Positions 3,172-18,878 of a stretch of 37,047 nt of DNA are shown here, in pieces. Below the pieces are notes generated by a model that worked only from the letters and a program-made list of their open reading frames with translations, was not told where the DNA came from and did no database searches. Numbering within the stretch: position 1 is the stretch's first letter; every line of letters starts with the position of its first letter. The stretch lies in NCBI GenBank assembly GCA_947628185.1, contig CANQYW010000018.1, positions 1-37,047 of the forward strand, given 5' to 3'. Position numbers and translations under genes: made by a program. The DNA is from an uncultured Oscillospiraceae bacterium (GTDB lineage Bacteria; Bacillota; Clostridia; Oscillospirales; Oscillospiraceae).

Positions 3172-4968
3172 ATGGACAAGAACATAACTACCGACATAAA
3201 GTACGTGGGCGTCAACGACCACGAGGTGGACCTCTTTGAGGGGCAGTACACCGTCCCCAACGGTATGGCCTACAACTCCTACGTCATAAAGGACACCAAG
3301 TGCGCCGTCATGGACACGGTGGACAGGCACTTCACCCACGAGTGGCTGGATAACGTCTCCGCCGCCCTGGGCGGCAAGGCCCCCGACTACCTCATAATCC
3401 AGCACATGGAGCCGGACCACGCCGGGAGCATCGCGGACTTCATGCGGGTGTACCCGGAGGTGACGATAGTCTCCTCCGCCAAGGCTTTCACCATGATGGG
3501 CCAGTTCTTCGGGGACGAGTACGCCGAGCGCCGCGTCGTCGTGGGGGAGGGCGACACCCTCACCCTGGGCCGGCACACCCTCACCTTCGTCACCGCCCCC
3601 ATGGTCCACTGGCCGGAGGTCATCGTGACATACGACTCCGCCGACAAAGTCCTCTTCTCCGCCGACGGTTTCGGCAAGTTCGGCGCCCTCGATGTGGAGG
3701 AGGAGTGGGACTGCGAGGCCCGGCGGTACTACATCGGCATCGTGGGCAAGTACGGCGCCCAGGTGCAGCGGCTCCTCAAGAAGGCCGCTACGCTCGACAT
3801 CTCCGTCATCTGCCCCACCCACGGCCCGGTGCTAAAAGAGAATTTGGGCCACTACATCGGCCTCTACGACACCTGGTCCTCCTACAGGCCTGAGTCCGAG
3901 GGCGTGCTCATCGCCTACACCTCCGTCTACGGCCACACGAAGGAGGCCGTGGAGCTGCTGGCGGCGAAACTCCGGGAGCGGCGCTGCCCCAAGGTCGTGG
4001 TGACGGACCTCGCCCGGGACGACATGGCCGAGGCGGTGGAGGACGCCTTCCGCTACGGCAGGATAGTCCTGGCCACCACCACATATAACGCGGACATCTT
4101 CCCCTTCATGCGCACGTTCATCGACCACCTCACCGAGCGCAATTTCCAGAACCGCACCGTGGCGCTGATGGAGAACGGCACCTGGGCCCCCCAGGCGGCC
4201 AAGACCATGCGCTCCATGCTGGAGGGCTCCAAGAACATAACCTTCGCCGAGCACACCGTCCACATAAAGTCCGCCCTCTCCCAGGAGAGCCGCGCCGAGA
4301 TAGATGCTCTTGCCGACGAGCTCTGCCGGGACTATCTCGCCCAAGAGGAGGAGACCGCCAACAAGAGCGACATGACCGCCCTATTTAAGATTGGCTACGG
4401 CCTATATGTGGTCACCAGCAAGTCCGCCGACGGCCGGGACAACGGCCTCATCGTCAACACCGTCACCCAGCTGACGGACAATCCCTACCGGGTAGCCGTG
4501 AACATAAATAAATCGAACTACTCCCACCACATAATTAAGCAGACGGGCGTTTTGAACGTCAACTGCCTCTCGGTGGAGGCGCCCTTCAAGGTCTTTGAGA
4601 ACTTCGGGTTCCAGAGCGGCAGGACCGCCGACAAGTTCGCCGGCTGCACGCCCCTTCGCTCCGCCAACGGCCTCATATTCCTGCCCCGTTATATAAACGC
4701 CTTCCTCTCCCTCAAGGTGGAGCAGTACGTGGATCTTGGCACCCACGGCATGTTCATCTGCTCCGTCACCGAGGCCCGGGTCATATCCGACAAGGAGACC
4801 ATGACCTACACCTACTACCAGAGCAACGTGAAACCCCGCCCGGACACCAAGGGCAAGAAGGGGTACGTCTGCAAGATATGCGGCTACGTCCACGAGGGCG
4901 AGCTCCCCGACGACTTCGTCTGCCCCCTGTGCAAACACGGCGCGGCGGACTTCGAGCCGATAGTGTAA
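3172..4968 (+). CDS. Flavodiiron protein with flavin-reductase and rubredoxin domains
   Basis: Reduces O2 to water (or NO to N2O) in the cytoplasm and protects an anaerobe from traces of either gas. The 598 residues hold four modules: a metallo-beta-lactamase-like diiron domain (1-240), flavodoxin (about 246-390, starting LIAYTSVYGHTKEA), a flavin-reductase-like FMN domain (about 400-560) and a C-terminal rubredoxin (565-598). Diiron ligands are His78, Glu80, Asp82 and His83 (HMEPDH), His146, Asp165 and His217. Rubredoxin cysteines are 567, 570, 584 and 587. Simple FprA proteins end after flavodoxin; the two added domains suggest that electrons pass to the diiron site within one chain. O2 versus NO preference cannot be read from the sequence. 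The ribosome site AGGAGG fixes the start. Confidence 0.93.
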   Translation: MDKNITTDIKYVGVNDHEVDLFEGQYTVPNGMAYNSYVIKDTKCAVMDTVDRHFTHEWLDNVSAALGGKAPDYLIIQHMEPDHAGSIADFMRVYPEVTIVSSAKAFTMMGQFFGDEYAERRVVVGEGDTLTLGRHTLTFVTAPMVHWPEVIVTYDSADKVLFSADGFGKFGALDVEEEWDCEARRYYIGIVGKYGAQVQRLLKKAATLDISVICPTHGPVLKENLGHYIGLYDTWSSYRPESEGVLIAYTSVYGHTKEAVELLAAKLRERRCPKVVVTDLARDDMAEAVEDAFRYGRIVLATTTYNADIFPFMRTFIDHLTERNFQNRTVALMENGTWAPQAAKTMRSMLEGSKNITFAEHTVHIKSALSQESRAEIDALADELCRDYLAQEEETANKSDMTALFKIGYGLYVVTSKSADGRDNGLIVNTVTQLTDNPYRVAVNINKSNYSHHIIKQTGVLNVNCLSVEAPFKVFENFGFQSGRTADKFAGCTPLRSANGLIFLPRYINAFLSLKVEQYVDLGTHGMFICSVTEARVISDKETMTYTYYQSNVKPRPDTKGKKGYVCKICGYVHEGELPDDFVCPLCKHGAADFEPIV

Positions 4969-9615: not shown

Positions 9616-9633
9616 CCCGCCATAGATCGTCAA

Positions 9634-9676
9634 AAAATTGCCTGGGAGACCCGACGCGGCCATCCCAGGCATTTTT
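9634..9676. terminator. Bidirectional terminator between dacF and the switch region
   Basis: Arms 9639-9647 and 9663-9671 (TGCCTGGGA/TCCCAGGCA) form a perfect 9-bp stem. TTTTTG follows rightward and AATTTTTTG leftward. It ends dacF transcripts and would also end the leftward transcript from the promoter at 9750-9778. Confidence 0.85.
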
Positions 9677-9695
9677 GTGTCTATGCGGAATAAAA

Positions 9696-9726
9696 AAATG
9701 TCGCAGATTTGTGTATTCTGCGACAC
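9696..9726 (+). repeat. Left inverted repeat (IRL) of the putative invertible segment
   Basis: A 31-bp sequence matching the reverse complement of 10115-10145 at 28 of 31 positions. The shared non-palindromic core is GATTTGTGTATTC. It is flanked within each arm by GTCGC and GCGAC, so each arm is itself a dyad, as in many site-specific recombinase sites. Confidence 0.8.
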
Positions 9727-9749
9727 CTACCCGACCTTATTACGGGGTT

Positions 9750-9778
9750 ATTATACCATGTTCCATAGTAAATTTCAA
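9750..9778 (-). promoter_or_regulatory. Strong promoter facing away from the adhesin, inside the switch
   Basis: Minus strand: -35 TTGAAA (9778-9773), 17-bp spacer ending TGG, perfect -10 TATAAT (9755-9750). The TGG also makes an extended -10. No leftward gene follows; the transcript would cross IRL and stop at the terminator near 9634, about 110 bases. It is the best promoter in the region and has no gene to serve in this orientation. Confidence 0.75.
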
Positions 9779-9818
9779 TAGAAAGCGCATGTTTTGAGCG
9801 CCCAATTTTTGCGACCGT

Positions 9819-9860
9819 CCCTTTTCTTTGCCATTTCCTGGCGGGAAAGGGGCTTTTTTT
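9819..9860 (+). terminator. Rightward terminator inside the switch segment
   Basis: CCCTTTTC (9819-9826) pairs with GAAAGGGG (9845-9852) with one wobble. An inner GCC/GGC pairing shortens the loop, and C plus seven T follow. In this orientation it would block read-through from dacF into the adhesin. Confidence 0.6.
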
Positions 9861-9866
9861 GAGCAT

Positions 9867-10039
9867 TAAGCCGTCAAATAAGCAGTCAGACACACTCCGC
9901 TTTATTATATGCCAGAGTTTCAAAAATGTGCCTCTCTGGCGTGTTTTCTGCCCTTTGCGCCCAAATAAGTTATTTTGAGCTTGCCCTGTCGCGGGAGGAT
10001 AAGCAGTCAGATTTTTCAGTCAAATTTTAAGCAGTCAAA
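9867..10039 (+). repeat. Repeated 12-bp motif TAAGCAGTCARA
   Basis: TAAGCMGTCARA occurs at 9867-9878 and 9879-9890 (adjacent), 10000-10011 and 10028-10039. A degenerate copy, TTTTCAGTCAAA, lies at 10013-10024. All are in the same orientation inside the putative invertible segment. They could be binding sites for a regulator or an accessory recombination factor. Function is unknown. Confidence 0.6.
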
Positions 10040-10114
10040 TTATATTCTGTCGAAAGCGGCAGAATTTTTGTTTTTTCGGGGAATTTTATCATTTTTGAGG
10101 GAGATTTTCGGAGC

Positions 10115-10145
10115 GTGTCGCGGAATACACAAATCAGCGACGTTT
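10115..10145 (-). repeat. Right inverted repeat (IRR) of the putative invertible segment
   Basis: Reverse-complement partner of 9696-9726 with three mismatches in 31 bp. It lies 131 bp before the adhesin start. In between there is only a weak promoter-like pair (TTCTAA, 17 bp, TATTTT). Confidence 0.8.
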
Positions 10146-10276
10146 GTGCCGGGCCTTTCAAGTGTTCTAAGTATTCCCGAAGTATCGTATTTTATGTGCC
10201 GATTTAGGGGGTATTTCGGGCACAAAACGGGTAAAAACGGGCGATTTTGCAGTTGATTTTCATGGAGGTGGCATTT

Positions 10277-13200
10277 ATGAAAATGGGTAAAGTAAGAAGT
10301 GCCGCAAAGCGTCTGAGGACTGGCCTCCTTGTGGTGGCGGTTCTCCTCTCGCTGGGGTTGTGGTCGGCCCCGGCGGATGCGGCAAGCAGCGGAGGCGGGA
10401 GTGATTTTGCGTTTGTGCCCTACACCAACGAGAGCGTCAATAGTTGGAGCACAATAAAGAGCAAGGCGTCGGTGAATAACGGCACCGTGATCTATCAGTT
10501 GACGGGGAACATCAATGCGGACTCAGAGTGTACCGTCACCGGCGACCTCACCATCGACCTCAACGGCCATACGATAACGGCGAGTAGTAGTCTGAGCTGG
10601 AAACACGTCATGACAGTTAATGGCGGCGGCAAGCTGACGATTACTGACAGCGCGGGATCTGGTAAGTTCACAACGTCATCGAGCGTCAAGCCCTTCAGCC
10701 TTGTGAAGGTGGACGGCGGAAATTTCACTCTCGACGGCGGCACACTCGAGAATAGCAAAGGCGGCTATCACGCCATCCAGATGAACAGCGGCACTACCAC
10801 GATAAACGGTGGCACTATACAGAACTCCGGCGTAGCGAACACCGACCACGGCGGCGGAATCTCCGTGGCGAGCGGGGACCTGACGATCAACGGCGGCACG
10901 ATCAAGAACAACAAAGCGAAGACCGGCGCGGGGATCCAGTTCCAGGGCGGCGGCAACTTCACCATGACCGGCGGTTCAGTCACGAAGAACACAGCCTCAA
11001 GCAACGGCGGAGGGCTGTACTTCAAGGACTGCGCCGGTGAAATTAAGTTCGAGGGCGGCTCCGTCACGGAGAACACCGCCACATGGCACGGCGGCGGACT
11101 CTGGTTTGATAATTGCGGCAACGTGGATATTGGTGGGGATACCCATATAGACAACAACTCAGCTGACACAGCCGGTGGTATCCGTGTGCAGAATGGCACA
11201 AATCTCACCATCACCGGGGGAACTGTGTCCAAGAACACAGCCAGCGGCACAGGCGCAAGTGACGCCGCCGACGGCCTCGGCGGGGGCATAGCCGTGACTC
11301 AGAGCACCATCACGATCACCGGCGGAGAGATAAGCGGCAACACCGCCAAAAACGGCGGCGGAGGAATAGCCCTAAGGCAAGGCGACACCAGCCATTTGAC
11401 CACCGTCACCATGAGCGGGGGCACGATCTCAGATAACAGCGTCACCGGCGGAGAGTGGAAGTACGGCGGCGGCGTGTACCTCCAAGACCACAGCAGATTT
11501 ACCATGACGGACGGTACAATCAGCGGCAACCATAGCATTGGCCAGGGCGGCGGTATCGCCACGGACTACACTGGGGCGGATGGAAAGTGTACCGGCGATA
11601 TGAAAGTCACCATCAACGGCGGTACGATCAGCGGCAACTATTCGACTTTGCACGAGGGCGGCGGCATCGGCATGGGCAGCGGCACCCTCGTCATAGAGGC
11701 GAAGGACGACAATAAGATCTATATCACTGAAAACGAGTCCCGCACGACTGACCACTGGGGCGGCGGCGGAATCATGATCTCGGACAAGTCACAGGCCGTC
11801 ATCGTTAATGCCCTAATCGAAAATAACAGCGCTGGAGGTTTTGGCGGCGGCCTCGGAGCCTGCTCCACCGGCCACGTCTATTACGGCGTCGGGGAGTATG
11901 AGGATAATCCATCTCCTCTGGCGGCCATCTTCGGTAACAGTGCGGATGGCAAGAACCTCTCCGGCGGCAAGAGTAAGAAGGACGCCGACCACAACGCCTA
12001 CAAGAACCCGGTCTTTATGAGCTCCGGCTATCAGGACGTCTACAGCGCCCTTGAGGCGGTCATTAGCGGCGCAATGCTGGGCGGCGGCGACGAGGCGTGG
12101 GTTGGCAGCGCGGACGGCGCACCGGTTACGGTGGGTAAAGACGGTTTCGTCTCGGCCTCCCAGATGCTGGGCCTCACCTCCAACTCCAACGAGGCGGATA
12201 GGGCGAAGGCCAGAGAGGCCGCCAGCGTATTTATCACCGGCAATAAGTCCAACACCCACGGCGGCGGCATCATGTGCAACGGCTCCCTTGCCATGGGCTG
12301 GAGCGCGGAACTTGAAGTGACCCCCGGCCTCAAGATAGGCGGCAAGAAGATGTACGAGGTCAAGGGCACAGCGGCCAGCTCCGTGCCGGAGTTTAAGTAC
12401 GGGATAAGCGATACTGAGCCCACTTGGACTGAGGACGGCTGGAAAGCGGCAGACGGCAGCAACGTCTTTGTGACGAAGAACGGCGTTGACGGCAACTTCG
12501 CCTTTGACTTAACCTTCGGCGAGACTCAGCCCTGTCTCAAGAAAGAGACCGGCGAGCAGACCTTCTACTTCTGGGAAGTGAATGAGGGCGGAAATGGCGT
12601 GACCTACGATCAGTCACTCTACAAGGTGACGGTAAAAGTATCTGAAAAGACCGAAACCAAGGATGTTGCCGGTGCAACGCTCACTATCACCACGTGGAGC
12701 ATTGATAGCGGCAGCGCCAAGGTAGGAAAATGCGGCCCTGAGAGTACGGACTACACCGATGTCACCATCACCCAGGAAGTCGAGAAGAACAATAATAGCT
12801 CAGAGGCTATGCACTGGACGACCCGCACCGTCATAACCCTCACAAACACCGCCTTTACGAACACCTATGACGGCAACGCCAATATCTCAATCGTGAAGGT
12901 GGACGACTCCAGCGCTCCTCTCAGCGGCGTGAAGTTCACACTCTATCGGAAGGACAACAAGGGACAGACGATAGGGGAATGGGACGACAAGTGGACTAAA
13001 GTTAAAGACTACACCTCCAATAATGACGGCGTCATATACAAGGACGTCGAGGGTGGTAGCAATAACCTTCAAGTCGGCACATACCGCATAGTCGAGACCG
13101 AGACACCGGATGGTTTCGGCGCTCTCCCGGGGTACATCGAGTTCGAGATAAAGGGATCTGGGTATCAGAGAATGATATCCTGCCCCTTCGACCCCCTGTT

Positions 13201-13762
13201 TTCCGATCACGTTGAGGTGACGGAGAACGGCCTTAAATTGCGGATAGAGAATGAGCGAATTTTGAAGTCCCTGCGCCTCATCAAGGTTGACGGCAGTCTC
13301 GCGGACCGAAACCTCGCGGGGGCCGAGTTCGAGCTCTGGTCAACTGCTGAGGGCGTCAAGAGCGAAAAGCTCTTTACCGGCGTCTCCGGCGAGGATGGGA
13401 AAATAAATTGGACTGCCGAGGGCGGGACAGGCGAACCGTCGTTTGACCTCACGCTGGGCGTCGGGACGTACCACATCATTGAGACAAAGGCCCCGGATGG
13501 GTACTTTAAGCTGGAGAAACCCATAACTTTGACGGTGGACAAAGACGGCAAAATAACCCTCCAGAGCAGCGAGATAGGAGTGCTCGACGCTGATAAGAAT
13601 GAACCTGTTCTCACCTACAGAATTCCCAACACCAGCGGCTATCTGCTCCCCGAGTCCGGCGGGCCGGGGATATATGGGCTCATCGCCGGGGGTTTGGCCC
13701 TGGTGCTCGTCAGCGCCGCGGCATTTGAGCTCAAAAAACGCGCCGGGAGGCGGGCACGGTGA
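10277..13762 (+). CDS. LPxTG-type cell-wall adhesin: beta-helix repeats plus pilin-like domains
   Basis: A surface protein of 1161 residues. ATG at 10277 is chosen because GGAGGTGG (10264-10271) precedes it; the frame is open further upstream. In order: signal peptide (1-35, cut near ADA-A); right-handed beta-helix of imperfect Gly-rich repeats (about 80-670, units like ITGGTISGN and GGGI); an isopeptide-forming pilin-like domain (about 680-865, FAFDLTF...YFWEVNE); two CnaB/SpaA-like domains (about 868-990 and 996-1117), each ending with an ET(E/K)(T/A)PDG(F/Y) segment; then sorting signal LPESG (1124-1128), a hydrophobic helix and KKRAGRRAR. The sorting motif has Ser in place of Thr. The stop overlaps the sortase start (GTGA). 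Expression is probably governed by the upstream switch. The ligand is unknown. Confidence 0.88.
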   Translation: MKMGKVRSAAKRLRTGLLVVAVLLSLGLWSAPADAASSGGGSDFAFVPYTNESVNSWSTIKSKASVNNGTVIYQLTGNINADSECTVTGDLTIDLNGHTITASSSLSWKHVMTVNGGGKLTITDSAGSGKFTTSSSVKPFSLVKVDGGNFTLDGGTLENSKGGYHAIQMNSGTTTINGGTIQNSGVANTDHGGGISVASGDLTINGGTIKNNKAKTGAGIQFQGGGNFTMTGGSVTKNTASSNGGGLYFKDCAGEIKFEGGSVTENTATWHGGGLWFDNCGNVDIGGDTHIDNNSADTAGGIRVQNGTNLTITGGTVSKNTASGTGASDAADGLGGGIAVTQSTITITGGEISGNTAKNGGGGIALRQGDTSHLTTVTMSGGTISDNSVTGGEWKYGGGVYLQDHSRFTMTDGTISGNHSIGQGGGIATDYTGADGKCTGDMKVTINGGTISGNYSTLHEGGGIGMGSGTLVIEAKDDNKIYITENESRTTDHWGGGGIMISDKSQAVIVNALIENNSAGGFGGGLGACSTGHVYYGVGEYEDNPSPLAAIFGNSADGKNLSGGKSKKDADHNAYKNPVFMSSGYQDVYSALEAVISGAMLGGGDEAWVGSADGAPVTVGKDGFVSASQMLGLTSNSNEADRAKAREAASVFITGNKSNTHGGGIMCNGSLAMGWSAELEVTPGLKIGGKKMYEVKGTAASSVPEFKYGISDTEPTWTEDGWKAADGSNVFVTKNGVDGNFAFDLTFGETQPCLKKETGEQTFYFWEVNEGGNGVTYDQSLYKVTVKVSEKTETKDVAGATLTITTWSIDSGSAKVGKCGPESTDYTDVTITQEVEKNNNSSEAMHWTTRTVITLTNTAFTNTYDGNANISIVKVDDSSAPLSGVKFTLYRKDNKGQTIGEWDDKWTKVKDYTSNNDGVIYKDVEGGSNNLQVGTYRIVETETPDGFGALPGYIEFEIKGSGYQRMISCPFDPLFSDHVEVTENGLKLRIENERILKSLRLIKVDGSLADRNLAGAEFELWSTAEGVKSEKLFTGVSGEDGKINWTAEGGTGEPSFDLTLGVGTYHIIETKAPDGYFKLEKPITLTVDKDGKITLQSSEIGVLDADKNEPVLTYRIPNTSGYLLPESGGPGIYGLIAGGLALVLVSAAAFELKKRAGRRAR

Positions 13763-14487
13763 CGGACGCCGCTAAGAGCGCCGGCGCGGCCCGGGGAAGG
13801 GAGAAAACCGGCGGCCTCTCCATCCTCCCAAAACTTCTCCTTGCCCTTATGTTCCTCGTGAGCCTCTACCTCGTGGCCTACACGCCCATAAATAACTGGC
13901 TACACGACCTGCGCATGGAGGCCCTCATCTCCAGCTACGAAAAGGCCGTCTCGAATCTCACGGCGGAGGAGAGGGCGGATATCTTGAGCGCCGCAGACGA
14001 GTATAACTCAAATCTCGACCTCGGGGCGCACTTCATCCTGAGAGAGGAAGATCTGGCGGAGTACGCTACACTCCTCGACCCCCAGGGCACCGGCATGATG
14101 GGCTACATCGAGATACCGAAAATCGACGTCTATCTCCCCATCTACCACAATGCGGACGAGACAACCATGGCGGAGGCCGTGGGCCACATACCGGGCTCGT
14201 CGCTGCCCGTGGGCGGTGAGAGCTGTCACACCGTCCTCTGCGGCCACCGGGACCAGTCAACGGCTTTCCTATTCCACGACCTCGATAAGCTCTCGCCCGG
14301 CGACACCTTCACCCTCACAGTTCTTGACAGGACCGTGACATATGAGGTCGACAACATCCAAGTGGTCCTCCCGGAGGAGATAGAGAGCCTCGCCATTGAG
14401 GAGGGCGAAGATCACTGCACCCTCGTCACCTGTCACCCCCACGGCAGCAGCGCCTATAGGCTGCTTGTCCGTGGCACGCGGGTGTGA
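13759..14487 (+). CDS. Class C-like sortase dedicated to the adjacent adhesin
   Basis: A membrane transpeptidase of 242 residues that cuts the sorting signal of the neighbouring protein and links it to the wall or to other subunits. It has an N-terminal anchor (about 23-42). The catalytic domain begins at GYIEIPKIDVYLPIYH (115-130) and carries His163 (CGHRD), Cys225 (TLVTC) and Arg234 (YRLLVRG). The sequence fits class C, but I see no DP(W/F) lid motif before the catalytic domain and no C-terminal membrane helix, both usual in pilus sortases. GTG at 13759 overlaps the adhesin stop by four bases, so translation is coupled. With only one substrate gene the product may be a monomeric adhesin or a homopolymer. 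Confidence 0.9.
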   Translation: MTDAAKSAGAARGREKTGGLSILPKLLLALMFLVSLYLVAYTPINNWLHDLRMEALISSYEKAVSNLTAEERADILSAADEYNSNLDLGAHFILREEDLAEYATLLDPQGTGMMGYIEIPKIDVYLPIYHNADETTMAEAVGHIPGSSLPVGGESCHTVLCGHRDQSTAFLFHDLDKLSPGDTFTLTVLDRTVTYEVDNIQVVLPEEIESLAIEEGEDHCTLVTCHPHGSSAYRLLVRGTRV

Positions 14488-14570: not shown

Positions 14571-16032
<1,462 letters not shown>

Positions 16033-16075
16033 TGGGGAAATGGACTATTTTGAATTTTTCGCCGCCTGAACCCCC

Positions 16076-16184
16076 AAAAAAAGGGGGCGGGCCTCGCGGC
16101 CCGCCGAAAATAGGGTTGTGGGATAAAGATATGAGCTTACGGTCTTCGATGAAAAAAGTATTTCAAAGACATCGGATAAGCTGT
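16076..16184 (-). ncRNA. Putative small structured RNA (about 109 nt), unnamed
   Basis: Minus strand. It is bounded by a good promoter (16191-16219) and an intrinsic terminator: GGCGGGCC (16105-16098), loop GCGA, GGCCCGCC (16093-16086), then CCC-type spacer and T7 (16082-16076). The 5' part folds into nested stems: AGCTTA/TAAGCT (16182-16177 with 16139-16134), GTCTT/AAGAC (16170-16166 with 16146-16142) and TGAA/TTCA (16165-16162 with 16153-16150). There is no open reading frame of note. The terminator lies upstream of the gdhA promoter, so it serves no leftward protein gene. It does not match 6S, SRP, tmRNA or a riboswitch that I know. Existence is inferred from signals. Confidence 0.5.
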
Positions 16185-16190
16185 GATATA

Positions 16191-16219
16191 ATAATAAACC
16201 CGGCGCACCCATTTGTAAA
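16191..16219 (-). promoter_or_regulatory. Promoter of the putative small RNA
   Basis: Minus strand: -35 TTTACA (16219-16214), 17-bp spacer, -10 TATTAT (16196-16191). A plus-strand extended -10, TGATATAAT, overlaps at 16184-16192 but has no good -35. Confidence 0.6.
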
Positions 16220-16268
16220 TAGGAGGTTTTGTCGAGCCGGCACTACTTTTGGGGCACAGTCCGCCGCC

Positions 16269-16297
16269 TTGCAAGAGCGGCGGATATGTGCTATTAT
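16269..16297 (+). promoter_or_regulatory. Promoter of the EF-G/NYN fusion gene
   Basis: -35 TTGCAA (16269-16274), 17-bp spacer, -10 TATTAT (16292-16297). The leader would be only about 20 bases, with AGGAAGGAGG before ATG 16326. The -35 sits in the loop of a CCGCCGC/GCGGCGG dyad (16261-16283), which could serve as an operator. Confidence 0.65.
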
Positions 16298-16325
16298 TCA
16301 CCTATACACCAGGAAGGAGGCCGTT

Positions 16326-18878
16326 ATGGGTAACACGGTCATCGGCATATTGGCCCATGTGGACGCGGGGAAGACCACCCTCTCGGAGGCGCTGCTCTAC
16401 CTCTCCGGGGCCATAAGGTCCCTGGGGCGGGTGGACCACGGGGACGCCTTTCTCGATAACTTCACCCTCGAACGGCAGCGGGGCATAACCATCTTCTCGA
16501 AAGAGGCGGTGCTGGACCTGGGCGGCCGGAGCGCCACGCTCCTCGATACCCCCGGCCACGTGGACTTCTCGGCGGAGACCGAGCGGACCCTGGACGTCCT
16601 GGACGCGGCCATACTCGTAATTAGCGCCCCGGAGGGCGTCCAGAGCCACACAAGGACCCTCTGGAAACTCCTCCATGAGCGGCGGATACCCACCTTCGTC
16701 TTTATAAATAAGACCGACCTCCCCGGCCTCACAAAACAGGAGCTCCTTCGCGAGCTGAGTCATGAGCTGGGGGAGGGCTTTTTCGACCCCGGGGAGCCCC
16801 AGGGGGAGGAGCTGGCCCTCTGCGATGAGCCGCTCTTAGAGGCGTATCTTGAGACGGGCGAGCTCACGGAGGAGGCCATACTCGCCGCCTTCCGCCGGGG
16901 GAACGTCCAGCCCTGTTTCTTCGGGGCGGCCCTCAAGCTCTTAGGCGTGGAGGAGTTTCTCTCCGCTCTCGGGCGCATGGCGCCGGAGTGCCCTCCCAAA
17001 GCTGGTTTCGCAGCCCGGGTATTTAAGATATCCCGGGATGGTGAGGGCCGCCGCCTCACCCACATGAAGATAACGGGCGGGGTCCTCCGGGTGCGGGACG
17101 TCCTCACGGCGGGGGGCGTCCAGGAGAAGGTCACCCAGATACGCATATACTCCGGGGCGAAATATAGGACGGTGGAGGAGGTCTACCCCGGGGACGTGGC
17201 GGCGGTGACGGGCCTCTCCGCCACAGCCGCCGGTATGGGCCTCGGCGAGGAGCCGGGGGAGCGGGCCCCGTCCCTGGAGCCGGTGCTCACCTACTCCATC
17301 ATCCTGCCGGAGGGCTGTGACGCCGCCAAGGCGGCCCTCAAGCTCCGGGAGCTGGAGGAGGAGGAGCCGGAACTCAAGCTAAAGTGGGAGCCCCGCACCG
17401 GGGAGATACAGGCGCGTCTCATGGGCCCGGTGCAATTAGAGGTGCTCCACGAGCTCATCGAGAGCCGCTACGGTCTCGACGTCTCCTTCGGCCCAGGCCG
17501 GATAATATACCGGGAGACCATCGCCGCCCCGGTGGAGGGCGTGGGCCACTACGAGCCCCTTCGCCATTACGCGGAGGTCCACCTCATCCTGGAGCCCGGG
17601 GAGCGGGGCAGCGGCATAGAGATAAGCTCAAAGTGCCCGGAGGAGGTGCTATCCGGGAGCTGGCAGCGGCTAATCCTCACGCACCTTGCGGAGAAACAGC
17701 ACCTTGGGGTCCTGACGGGCTCGCCCATAACGGACATAAAGCTCACCCTGGCCTCAGGCCGCGCCCACCCCAAACACACCGAGGGCGGGGACTTCCGGGA
17801 GGCCACATATAGGGCGGTGCGCCAGGGCCTCATGGGGGCGGAGAACATACTCTTAGAGCCCTGGTACGACTTCCGCCTGGACATCCCCGCCGGGAGCGTG
17901 GGGCGGGCCCTCACGGACCTCACCCGCATGGGGACCCGGTTCGAGCCGCCGGAGTCTTCCGGGGAGACGGCGGTGATCCGCGGCAGCGCCCCCGTGGCGG
18001 AGATCGGCGGCTACCCCGCCGCCGTCACGGCATACACCCGGGGCCTTGGCCGCACGGCCCTCGTATTTCACGGCTACGAGCCCTGCGCCAGTCAGGAGGC
18101 GGTGGTGGAGGCCCTGGGCTACGACCCGGAGGCGGATCTTGAGAACCCGCCCCACAGCGTATTTTGCAGTCACGGGGCCGGGTACGTGGTGCCCTGGTAC
18201 CAGGTGCCGGAGAAGATGCACTTGGAGAGCGCCCTTCACCCCCCGGAGCCCGAGGACCCGGTGAAGGAGGCCGCCAGGCGCTACGTGCGTATGGCCGCCA
18301 CGGACAAGGAGCTAATGGCAATATTCGAGCGGACCTACGGCAAGATACCCCGGGGCGAGGAGGCCCTGCGCCGCCCGCCAAAGGCTGAGAGCTCCGCCCC
18401 CAAGCCCGCCAAGACCCCGTCCCGCCCCCAGAAGGACGGCCTTGAGTTCGTGCTGGTGGACGGCTACAACATAATCTTCGCCTGGCCGGATCTCAAGCGC
18501 CTGGCAGGGGGGAGCTTAGACGCCGCCAGGGAGCGGCTAATTGAGAGGCTCCGAAATTACCAGGGGTTCCGCCAGTGCGCCGTCATCGTCGTTTTCGACG
18601 CCTACAAGGTGAAGAATAACCCCGGCAGCATGGAGCGCCTGGGGGGCCTCACGGTGGTCTACACCAAGGAGGCGGAGACGGCGGACATGTACATCGAGCG
18701 GGCCACCTACGACCTGAGCCGCCGCCACCAGGTGCGCGTGGCCACATCAGACGGCATGGAGCAGATGATAATCCTGGGCCGGGGGGCCCTGCGGGTCCCC
18801 GCCGCCGCCTTCGAGGCGGAGGTGCTGGAGGTGGAGCGGGCCATCCGGGATTGCCTTGCTGAGATGGGCAGAAGATAG
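16326..18878 (+). CDS. EF-G/TetM-like ribosomal GTPase fused to a Rae1/YacP-type NYN nuclease
   Basis: 850 residues. Residues 1-670 are an EF-G-family translational GTPase of the TetM branch: P-loop AHVDAGKTTL (10-19), RQRGITIF (51-58), DTPGHVDF (74-81), NKTD (128-131), then domains II-V. Residues 675-704 form a Pro/Lys/Ser linker. Residues 705-850 are a full NYN (PIN-like) domain matching YacP/Rae1: LVDGYNIIFAWPDL with Asp712, VVFDAY with Asp758, ETAD with Asp787 and ATSDGMEQ with Asp809. Bacillus Rae1 cuts mRNA in the ribosomal A site, the same site where EF-G and TetM bind. The fusion suggests GTP-driven delivery of a nuclease to ribosomes. The TetM domain IV tip (YSPVSTPADFR-type) is absent, replaced by HPKHTEGGDFREATYR, so tetracycline resistance is doubtful. 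Start: AGGAAGGAGG precedes ATG 16326. Confidence 0.85.
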   Translation: MGNTVIGILAHVDAGKTTLSEALLYLSGAIRSLGRVDHGDAFLDNFTLERQRGITIFSKEAVLDLGGRSATLLDTPGHVDFSAETERTLDVLDAAILVISAPEGVQSHTRTLWKLLHERRIPTFVFINKTDLPGLTKQELLRELSHELGEGFFDPGEPQGEELALCDEPLLEAYLETGELTEEAILAAFRRGNVQPCFFGAALKLLGVEEFLSALGRMAPECPPKAGFAARVFKISRDGEGRRLTHMKITGGVLRVRDVLTAGGVQEKVTQIRIYSGAKYRTVEEVYPGDVAAVTGLSATAAGMGLGEEPGERAPSLEPVLTYSIILPEGCDAAKAALKLRELEEEEPELKLKWEPRTGEIQARLMGPVQLEVLHELIESRYGLDVSFGPGRIIYRETIAAPVEGVGHYEPLRHYAEVHLILEPGERGSGIEISSKCPEEVLSGSWQRLILTHLAEKQHLGVLTGSPITDIKLTLASGRAHPKHTEGGDFREATYRAVRQGLMGAENILLEPWYDFRLDIPAGSVGRALTDLTRMGTRFEPPESSGETAVIRGSAPVAEIGGYPAAVTAYTRGLGRTALVFHGYEPCASQEAVVEALGYDPEADLENPPHSVFCSHGAGYVVPWYQVPEKMHLESALHPPEPEDPVKEAARRYVRMAATDKELMAIFERTYGKIPRGEEALRRPPKAESSAPKPAKTPSRPQKDGLEFVLVDGYNIIFAWPDLKRLAGGSLDAARERLIERLRNYQGFRQCAVIVVFDAYKVKNNPGSMERLGGLTVVYTKEAETADMYIERATYDLSRRHQVRVATSDGMEQMIILGRGALRVPAAAFEAEVLEVERAIRDCLAEMGRR

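Follow-up and report, generated by a model that had tools for sequence, protein, structure and literature searches.

In the 37,047-nt stretch of DNA analysed here (hereafter the window), which stems from an uncultured Oscillospiraceae bacterium, the segment at positions 9696-10145 is very likely, judged from comparative sequence analysis, a non-autonomous mini-inverton, that is, an invertible promoter that is served in trans by a tyrosine integrase of the Tn916/Tn1549 type. The initial annotation had read the segment as an invertible promoter, and this reading is supported by a paralogue in opposite orientation in the same genome, by a promoter-like site inside the segment, and by an integrase gene that lies between the repeats in homologous segments of relatives. 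Under the mechanism that we propose, the two inverted core sites, each consisting of 8-bp half-sites that flank a 7-nt spacer, and the paired arm sites would be bound by an integrase acting in trans, which would then invert the 388-bp interior. As assembled, the switch would be OFF, with its promoter directed away from an adhesin gene and two terminator-like hairpins facing that gene; after inversion (ON), transcription starting at this promoter would cross the gene-side repeat and a short leader before reaching the adhesin-sortase pair.

The element is delimited by 31-nt inverted arms at 9696..9726 (plus strand) and 10115..10145 (minus strand), which are complementary at 28/31 positions (90%), differ at the remaining 3/31, and are separated by 388 nt; the coordinates annotated initially hold, as does the location of the interior directly 5′ of an adhesin-sortase pair. 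Both arms are proposed recombinase sites with the same 7-nt spacer, inverted in the right one, and the 23-nt left core site (9701-9723, plus strand) reads TCGCAGAT-TTGTGTA-TTCTGCGA. The arms, for each of which the initial annotation gave a GTCGC/GCGAC dyad, are better described as integrase-type core sites that are accompanied by overlooked arm-type repeats. A 25-nt site pattern, allowing up to three mismatches, matched twice in the window as compared to no match in 100 shuffles of it. A search of the genome for further copies of the arm had been suggested; the 1.82-Mb assembly contains exactly two occurrences of the 13-nt core, both in the window element, and because it is confined to these two places, the arm is not a scattered repeat.

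Close to the left arm, a promoter-like site (TTGAAA-17-TATAAT with TG before the -10 box; 9750..9778, minus strand) matches the consensus at 11/12 positions and faces outward, away from the adhesin (OFF), while the right end reaches only 7/12, both values being based on consensus scoring only. Altogether, the region contains four promoter-like sites (shuffle mean 1.0), all of them on the minus strand and none facing the adhesin, with the other three being weaker than the one at 9750..9778. A terminator-like hairpin followed by a T run (9818..9860, plus strand; fold z -2.75) points toward the adhesin in the OFF state and would be reversed in the ON state; the terminator scan of the region did not report it, and its copy in the paralogous element described below folds at z -3.93. 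The only site reported by that scan, with 1.1 expected by chance, is an intrinsic-terminator-like hairpin with a T run near the gene-side repeat (10044..10075, plus strand; z -4.0), which likewise faces the adhesin in the OFF state. Paired GTCA repeats are present at both ends of the element as putative integrase arm sites, namely a left pair at 9870..9889 (plus strand; CCGTCAAATAAGCAGTC) and a right pair at 10004..10021 (plus strand; CAGTCAGATTTTTCAGTC), with an extra copy of the right repeat at 10027-10039. Alignments of the ends suggest that the middle stretch (9913..9998, no strand assigned) corresponds to the position of the integrase gene in autonomous relatives. Promoter, terminator, and arm-site functions are all predicted from these sequence features. 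Gene-side of the right arm lies a leader (10146..10178, plus strand) that is shared with the paralogous locus and serves as the gene-side marker of both switches. A further terminator-like hairpin, located after a carboxypeptidase gene at 9633-9677, has an 82% copy elsewhere in the same genome (C15:17625-17673).

A blastn search with 731 bp around the element against 99 genomes (its own and 98 relatives) revealed a full second copy in the own genome (C2:120348-120800; 82% identical over the arm-to-arm segment), no copy in the 98 other genomes, and no third copy in the own assembly at an E value of 0.001. Similarly, searching the own genome for arm pairs without mismatches retrieved only these two elements, whereas the two matches with two mismatches had no repeats above noise and seven further matches appeared at three mismatches. 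Downstream of the C2 copy lie the genes for a SpaA-type surface protein of 1757 aa and for a further sortase of class C. In a gene-to-gene alignment of both loci, the gene-side flank agrees right up to the arm (33 nt with one 4-nt indel, to position 10178), while the inter-arm segment can be aligned on the opposite strand only, and the two switches therefore lie in opposite orientations. In both copies the promoter-like site ends 23-24 nt inside one arm and scores 11/12, yet it faces its gene at C2 (ON) and faces away from it in the window (OFF); both orientations are thus found in paralogues of one genome, not at one locus. On the far side, the flanks share an A-run beside the arm and do not align beyond it. 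These unaligned far flanks, together with the existence of two copies with terminal inverted repeats, would also fit a MITE-like repeat that was transposed and landed before two adhesin genes in opposite orientations. We consider this very improbable and rejected it in view of the common gene-side flank, the tyrosine integrase carried by homologous segments, and the lack of a third copy at the above threshold; since the gene-side flank is shared up to the arm, one ancestral site with subsequent inversion is the simpler explanation.

When aligned with the ends of integrase-bearing cassettes from relatives, the window and C2 elements both prove to retain a left end with site, promoter, and GTCA pair as well as a right end with GTCA pair and site, but neither has the integrase gene; as this gene is missing from the 388-bp interior, we term the window element a non-autonomous derivative. 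These cassettes came to light in a site-pattern scan of the genome_contigs collection (from which records very near the genome of the window may have been excluded), which yielded two loci, both in MAGs of Lachnospiraceae with Lapin as isolate name. The cassettes of the relatives are about 1.5 kb long and harbor a tyrosine integrase gene between inverted repeats. At one locus (L038), two identical 28-nt arms surround a gene for a 371-aa tyrosine integrase (P0005), and the cassette precedes the gene of a protein that shares 43% identity with the C2 adhesin across 386 residues. The same genome (G463) contains a second cassette (at C58) directly before a homologue of the window adhesin (57% identical) and a sortase (56% identical). 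Another locus (L037) has retained the integrase and one arm beside a sortase remnant, with no bracketing repeat.

P0005 matches the Pfam families Phage_integrase and Phage_int_SAM_3, and its closest solved structures by sequence are those of an Int protein (PDB 6en0, 6emy, and 6emz; E 1.5e-19), which we take to be Tn1549 Int. In an alignment of 21 of the integrases (omitting those of L097 and L099, which are shorter at the N-terminus), the residues R206, K253, H315, R318, H341, and Y351, presumably the catalytic R-K-H-R-H-Y set, are invariant. An N-terminal stretch of about 60 residues is conserved as well, with a Pfam arm-domain match in 2/21 sequences (best E 0.017). In the integrases of L097 and L099, the match to P0005 does not begin until residue 65 or 68, and the left ends of their elements are devoid of an arm pair; possibly, they represent an arm-independent form.

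Among 400 family genomes, 28 contain homologues of P0005 with E values up to 1e-60, amounting to 37 matches. Of the 32 integrase genes that were found by protein similarity alone (32 of the 37 matches), 26 are bracketed by inverted repeats located no more than 600 nt away on either side, compared with only 1/236 control intervals in the same loci. Among the 18 best matches, 16 are bracketed (all but L088 and L101), as are 10 of the 14 weaker matches with a locus; an eleventh positive, L076, is left uncounted, being the same gene as L100. A bracketing repeat is lacking at L088, L101, L037, L061, L063, L065, and L068, two of these (L065 and L101) being truncated where their contigs end. Five further integrase loci count less, having been found via the sites themselves: both cassettes of G463 and those of G011 and G031 are bracketed, while L037 is not. 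In one genome (G341), two paralogous cassettes occur in opposite orientations before homologous genes; the flanks between inverted repeat and gene are 75% identical, and the interiors are 85% identical over 1318 nt with the cassette reversed.

A scan of 12 genes neighboring the cassettes, chosen by eye, returned above cut-off SLH, Cna_B/beta-helix, Listeria-Bacteroides repeat, glycosyltransferase, ABC-2 transporter, signal peptidase, and Rrf2 matches, in addition to DUF7601 in long proteins (with VWA or DUF11 below cut-off) and two weakly phage-integrase-like proteins. In G341, the switch-facing gene (L084, 2221-3084; L085, 5609-6472) weakly matches tyrosine recombinases, and the adjacent genes look polysaccharide-synthesis-like by eye. 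To the right of the integrase at L088 (G431), there are two direct copies of a core-like site (CGCAGAGTGCCGAACTCAGCG), for which an inverted mate was not found. In a congener (L120; G001:C5, around position 3857), one core site that is still intact, an arm pair, and the beginning of an integrase gene can be made out by eye before the sequence turns into wreckage; tblastn with P0005 gave nothing there at 1e-5, and the locus looks like a decayed cassette. Seven stretches with sortase homologues from six congeners contained no such element. The site patterns also produced many single unpaired sites in relatives (including L123-L125), and a site search of 34 genomes retrieved 12 sites in 10 genomes, six of them mateless (two in G026 and one each in G025, G007, G029, and G003). 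Finally, a perfect inverted repeat of another sequence (23/23, with 279 bp between its arms; L043, G012:C66, 5573-5874) lies between a distant tyrosine-recombinase match (24% identical to P0005) and a sortase gene, and is perhaps another, unrelated inverton.

Common features were compiled for 22 elements, comprising the 18 best integrase loci, two congeners, the window, and C2, with a family repeat motif of GTCGCAGA-N9-TCTGCGAC; in the window, the core sites are dyads resembling GTCGCAGA, and their spacer is locus-specific. The 7-nt spacer is equal in both arms of all elements (22/22), a figure partly dictated by the 10-nt exact seed with which the repeats were located, but is the same in only 6/462 ordered comparisons between loci, which the seed does not affect. 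This pattern bears on the reading that the arms do nothing but form RNA hairpins, as terminator or attenuator, on either side of an ordinary leader. The left arm indeed folds well as RNA (z -5.5); a hairpin, however, has no need of a loop that is identical within each pair and different between loci, and we rejected this reading, which we regard as barely credible, on the grounds of spacer identity within pairs and divergence between loci.

Directly repeated pairs of the type CxGTCA-N-GTC, which presumably resemble the arm sites of lambda- or Tn916-type integrases, occur at 16/22 left and 20/22 right ends, as compared to 0 and 0 on the reverse strand and to shuffle means of 0.14 (left) and 0.08 (right), the pattern having been drawn up post hoc from these same ends. 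As background, seven other stretches with a total of about 71 kb contain 11 occurrences on both strands. An outward promoter scoring at least 9/12 is found at the left end of 17/22 elements and at the right end of 1/22, with 3/22 scoring 9 on the inward strand; a good outward promoter is lacking in 5/22 (L091, L094, L096, L097, and L121).

Turning to candidate recombinases, the own assembly (83% complete) contains three matching genes, namely XerD and a XerC-like protein by PF00589 and one large serine recombinase by PF00239. All three lie on contigs other than that of the window, so that the initial statement that the window carries no recombinase holds for these two Pfam families. The initial proposal that the recombinase would act from elsewhere fits. 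An integrase of the P0005 family is absent from this 83%-complete assembly, in which P0005 matches only XerD (E 8.8e-6). Conceivably, the element is a real switch that is operated by one of the three, i.e. a XerC/XerD-like or the large serine recombinase, these being the only recombinases found in the assembly with the two Pfam models. We deem this quite unlikely, as the sites and arm pairs match those around a different integrase family in relatives. Alternatively, the absence of a P0005-family integrase, the imperfect arms, and the apparently wrecked cassette of the congener (L120) could indicate a locked relict that flipped once before its integrase was lost, with the adhesin now fixed OFF in the window and ON at C2. 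This appears fairly unlikely in light of the distribution of identities between the window and C2 elements: the left core, promoter, and first terminator-like stretch are 92-93% identical, as opposed to about 81-82% overall, a moderate contrast (the left arm pair reaches 86%, the right core 84%, the right arm region 80%, and other stretches 60-81%). It is also disfavored by a second genome (G467), in which six mini-elements have little in common but sites, arms, and promoter.

This genome is among the 15 that were matched in a site search of 400 family genomes and stood out by a recombinase-less element; it is 100% complete and belongs to a genus other than that of the window. An arm-pair search in G467 produced 13 matches at 0-2 mismatches, all of them inside six elements, and 11 scattered ones at three mismatches, as compared to six matches at up to three mismatches for a reversed-pattern control. 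The six elements measure 453-487 bp, carry no recombinase, and have arms that match at 18-23/23 positions, while the runner-up pairs reach 15-17. Four of the six have an outward promoter that scores 9/12 or better (at the right end, one of six), and each element precedes a large surface-like gene, directly or after a small ORF, with the promoter directed away from that gene, all six being OFF-like. Scans of four of these large proteins detected DUF7601, DUF5979, DUF11, or SpaA domains of the kind seen in surface proteins; the remaining two were assessed by eye, and most of the six run to the end of the fetched stretch. Alignment of the six elements leaves little in common except sites, promoter, two arm pairs, and a central TGTCC/GGACA-like motif. 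The latter (TGTCC...GGACA-like) is seen mid-element in L168-L172 and L145 within differing surroundings and is possibly the site of an accessory protein. A small HU-type gene lies between switch and large surface gene in L170 (5685-6050, Bac_DNA_binding) and L145 (1361-1747, by likeness), perhaps encoding a co-switched DNA-bending factor.

G467 encodes one integrase of the P0005 family (47% identical over 369 residues), which stands alone: its 4.1-kb locus contains no arm pair and no core-like bracketing repeat, with the best inverted pair around it (19/23) being unlike the sites. The other four P0005 matches in this genome are partial (26-31% identical), and the integrase and the mini-elements are linked by co-occurrence only. 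By analogy, the genome of the window would be arranged like G467, with mini-elements and one stand-alone integrase, whose gene would reside in the unassembled part; the window element would still flip, with a P0005-family integrase as its probable recombinase. On a broader scale, it seems reasonably likely that arm-binding integrases of the Tn916/Tn1549 type became phase-variation invertases in Clostridia, in the form of both self-contained cassettes, with the integrase inside the flipping segment, and split systems, where several 450-490-bp mini-invertons, each before a large surface protein, depend on a single stand-alone integrase; the window and C2 elements would belong to such a split system.

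The proposed controlled gene (10277..13762, plus strand) encodes a surface protein of 1161 aa with SpaA-type domains, an N-terminal beta-helix-like part, and an LPESGG anchor. While the initial description as an anchored 1161-residue adhesin thus stands, its motif is LPESGG instead of the canonical LPxTG. The sortase gene coupled to it was recognized correctly; it encodes a class C enzyme (13759..14487, plus strand; NF033745, 220.9 bits with a cut-off of 160), and its start overlaps the end of the adhesin gene. The proposed beta-helix is consistent with the data, albeit unproven: no Pfam beta-helix family matched the adhesin at an E value of 0.001, and an AlphaFold2 model of residues 36-640 (mean pLDDT 73, two input sequences) is strand-rich. 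None of its structural look-alikes in the PDB reached E 0.001; the top ones are, as we understand them, mostly beta-helix proteins. A third sortase gene of the same kind is located on C29, where the contig ends inside its adhesin gene. The LPESGGPG anchor (in the window at about 13646) is common to the adhesins of all three sortase loci (window, C2, and C29) of this genome, which suggests a matched specificity of the class C sortases. Further downstream, at 16026-18878, the window encodes a 950-aa translation-GTPase-like protein that matches ribosomal-protection and EF-G models far below their cut-offs.

With regard to known systems, E. coli fimS is closest in logic, being a short invertible segment with a promoter inside, inverted repeats, and a tyrosine recombinase (PMC2784873; PMC9993118). 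Its recombinases (FimB/FimE), however, are encoded beside the switch, whereas the window element presumably depends on a Tn916-type integrase from elsewhere and features arm-like repeats inside the segment. The initial annotation had instead invoked cwpV of C. difficile. This analogy is apt inasmuch as cwpV encodes a Gram-positive surface protein and is switched by RecV, a trans-acting tyrosine recombinase of the XerC/XerD family, but the segment inverting at cwpV is described as devoid of a promoter, with termination being proposed as the mode of regulation (PMC2784873); fimS is therefore the better analogue. The window likewise departs from the cwpV type, for which the promoter would lie outside the segment, as its promoter-like site is inside and the far side has a terminator-like hairpin. 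Invertible DNA that contains a recombinase gene, the arrangement seen in the autonomous relatives, is known from a fimbrial locus of Providencia stuartii (an invertible segment with 14-bp repeats that encloses a recombinase ORF) and from Hin, which is located within its own invertible segment (PMC5903667) and is a serine recombinase (PMC3798978).

The nearest solved relatives of the cassette integrase belong to the Tn1549 Int/IntTn916 subgroup, and integrases with arm-binding domains have been described as linked to mobile elements (PMC8138268). While the Int proteins of Tn1549 and Tn916 move conjugative transposons, the sites of the cassettes are inverted, which supports inversion. In the hCom2 survey, inverton group 139 (33 invertons, 32 of them from Clostridia) was linked to invertase group 35 of tyrosine-type recombinases/integrases (PMC11892184). 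This group may be the same family as the window element; the accessible description of both groups includes no recombinase-less members, arm sites, or stand-alone integrase (PMC11892184). The literature searched, with subscription papers and supplements outside its scope, names no recombinase-less Clostridia inverton that is served by a Tn916-type integrase; invertible promoters as such are already known, and we would tentatively regard the form that lacks a recombinase gene, carries arm sites, and is paired with a stand-alone integrase as apparently undescribed.

If correct, an arm-binding integrase that acts as master invertase over several loci would represent a new role for these enzymes, and spacers that differ from locus to locus would account for the ability of a single enzyme to serve several loci without scrambling the chromosome. 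Moreover, the signature of core dyad, locus-specific spacer, arm pairs, and outward promoter would permit genome-wide prediction, and the little-studied Clostridia would gain a recognizable modular switch for surface adhesins, pili, and glycans.
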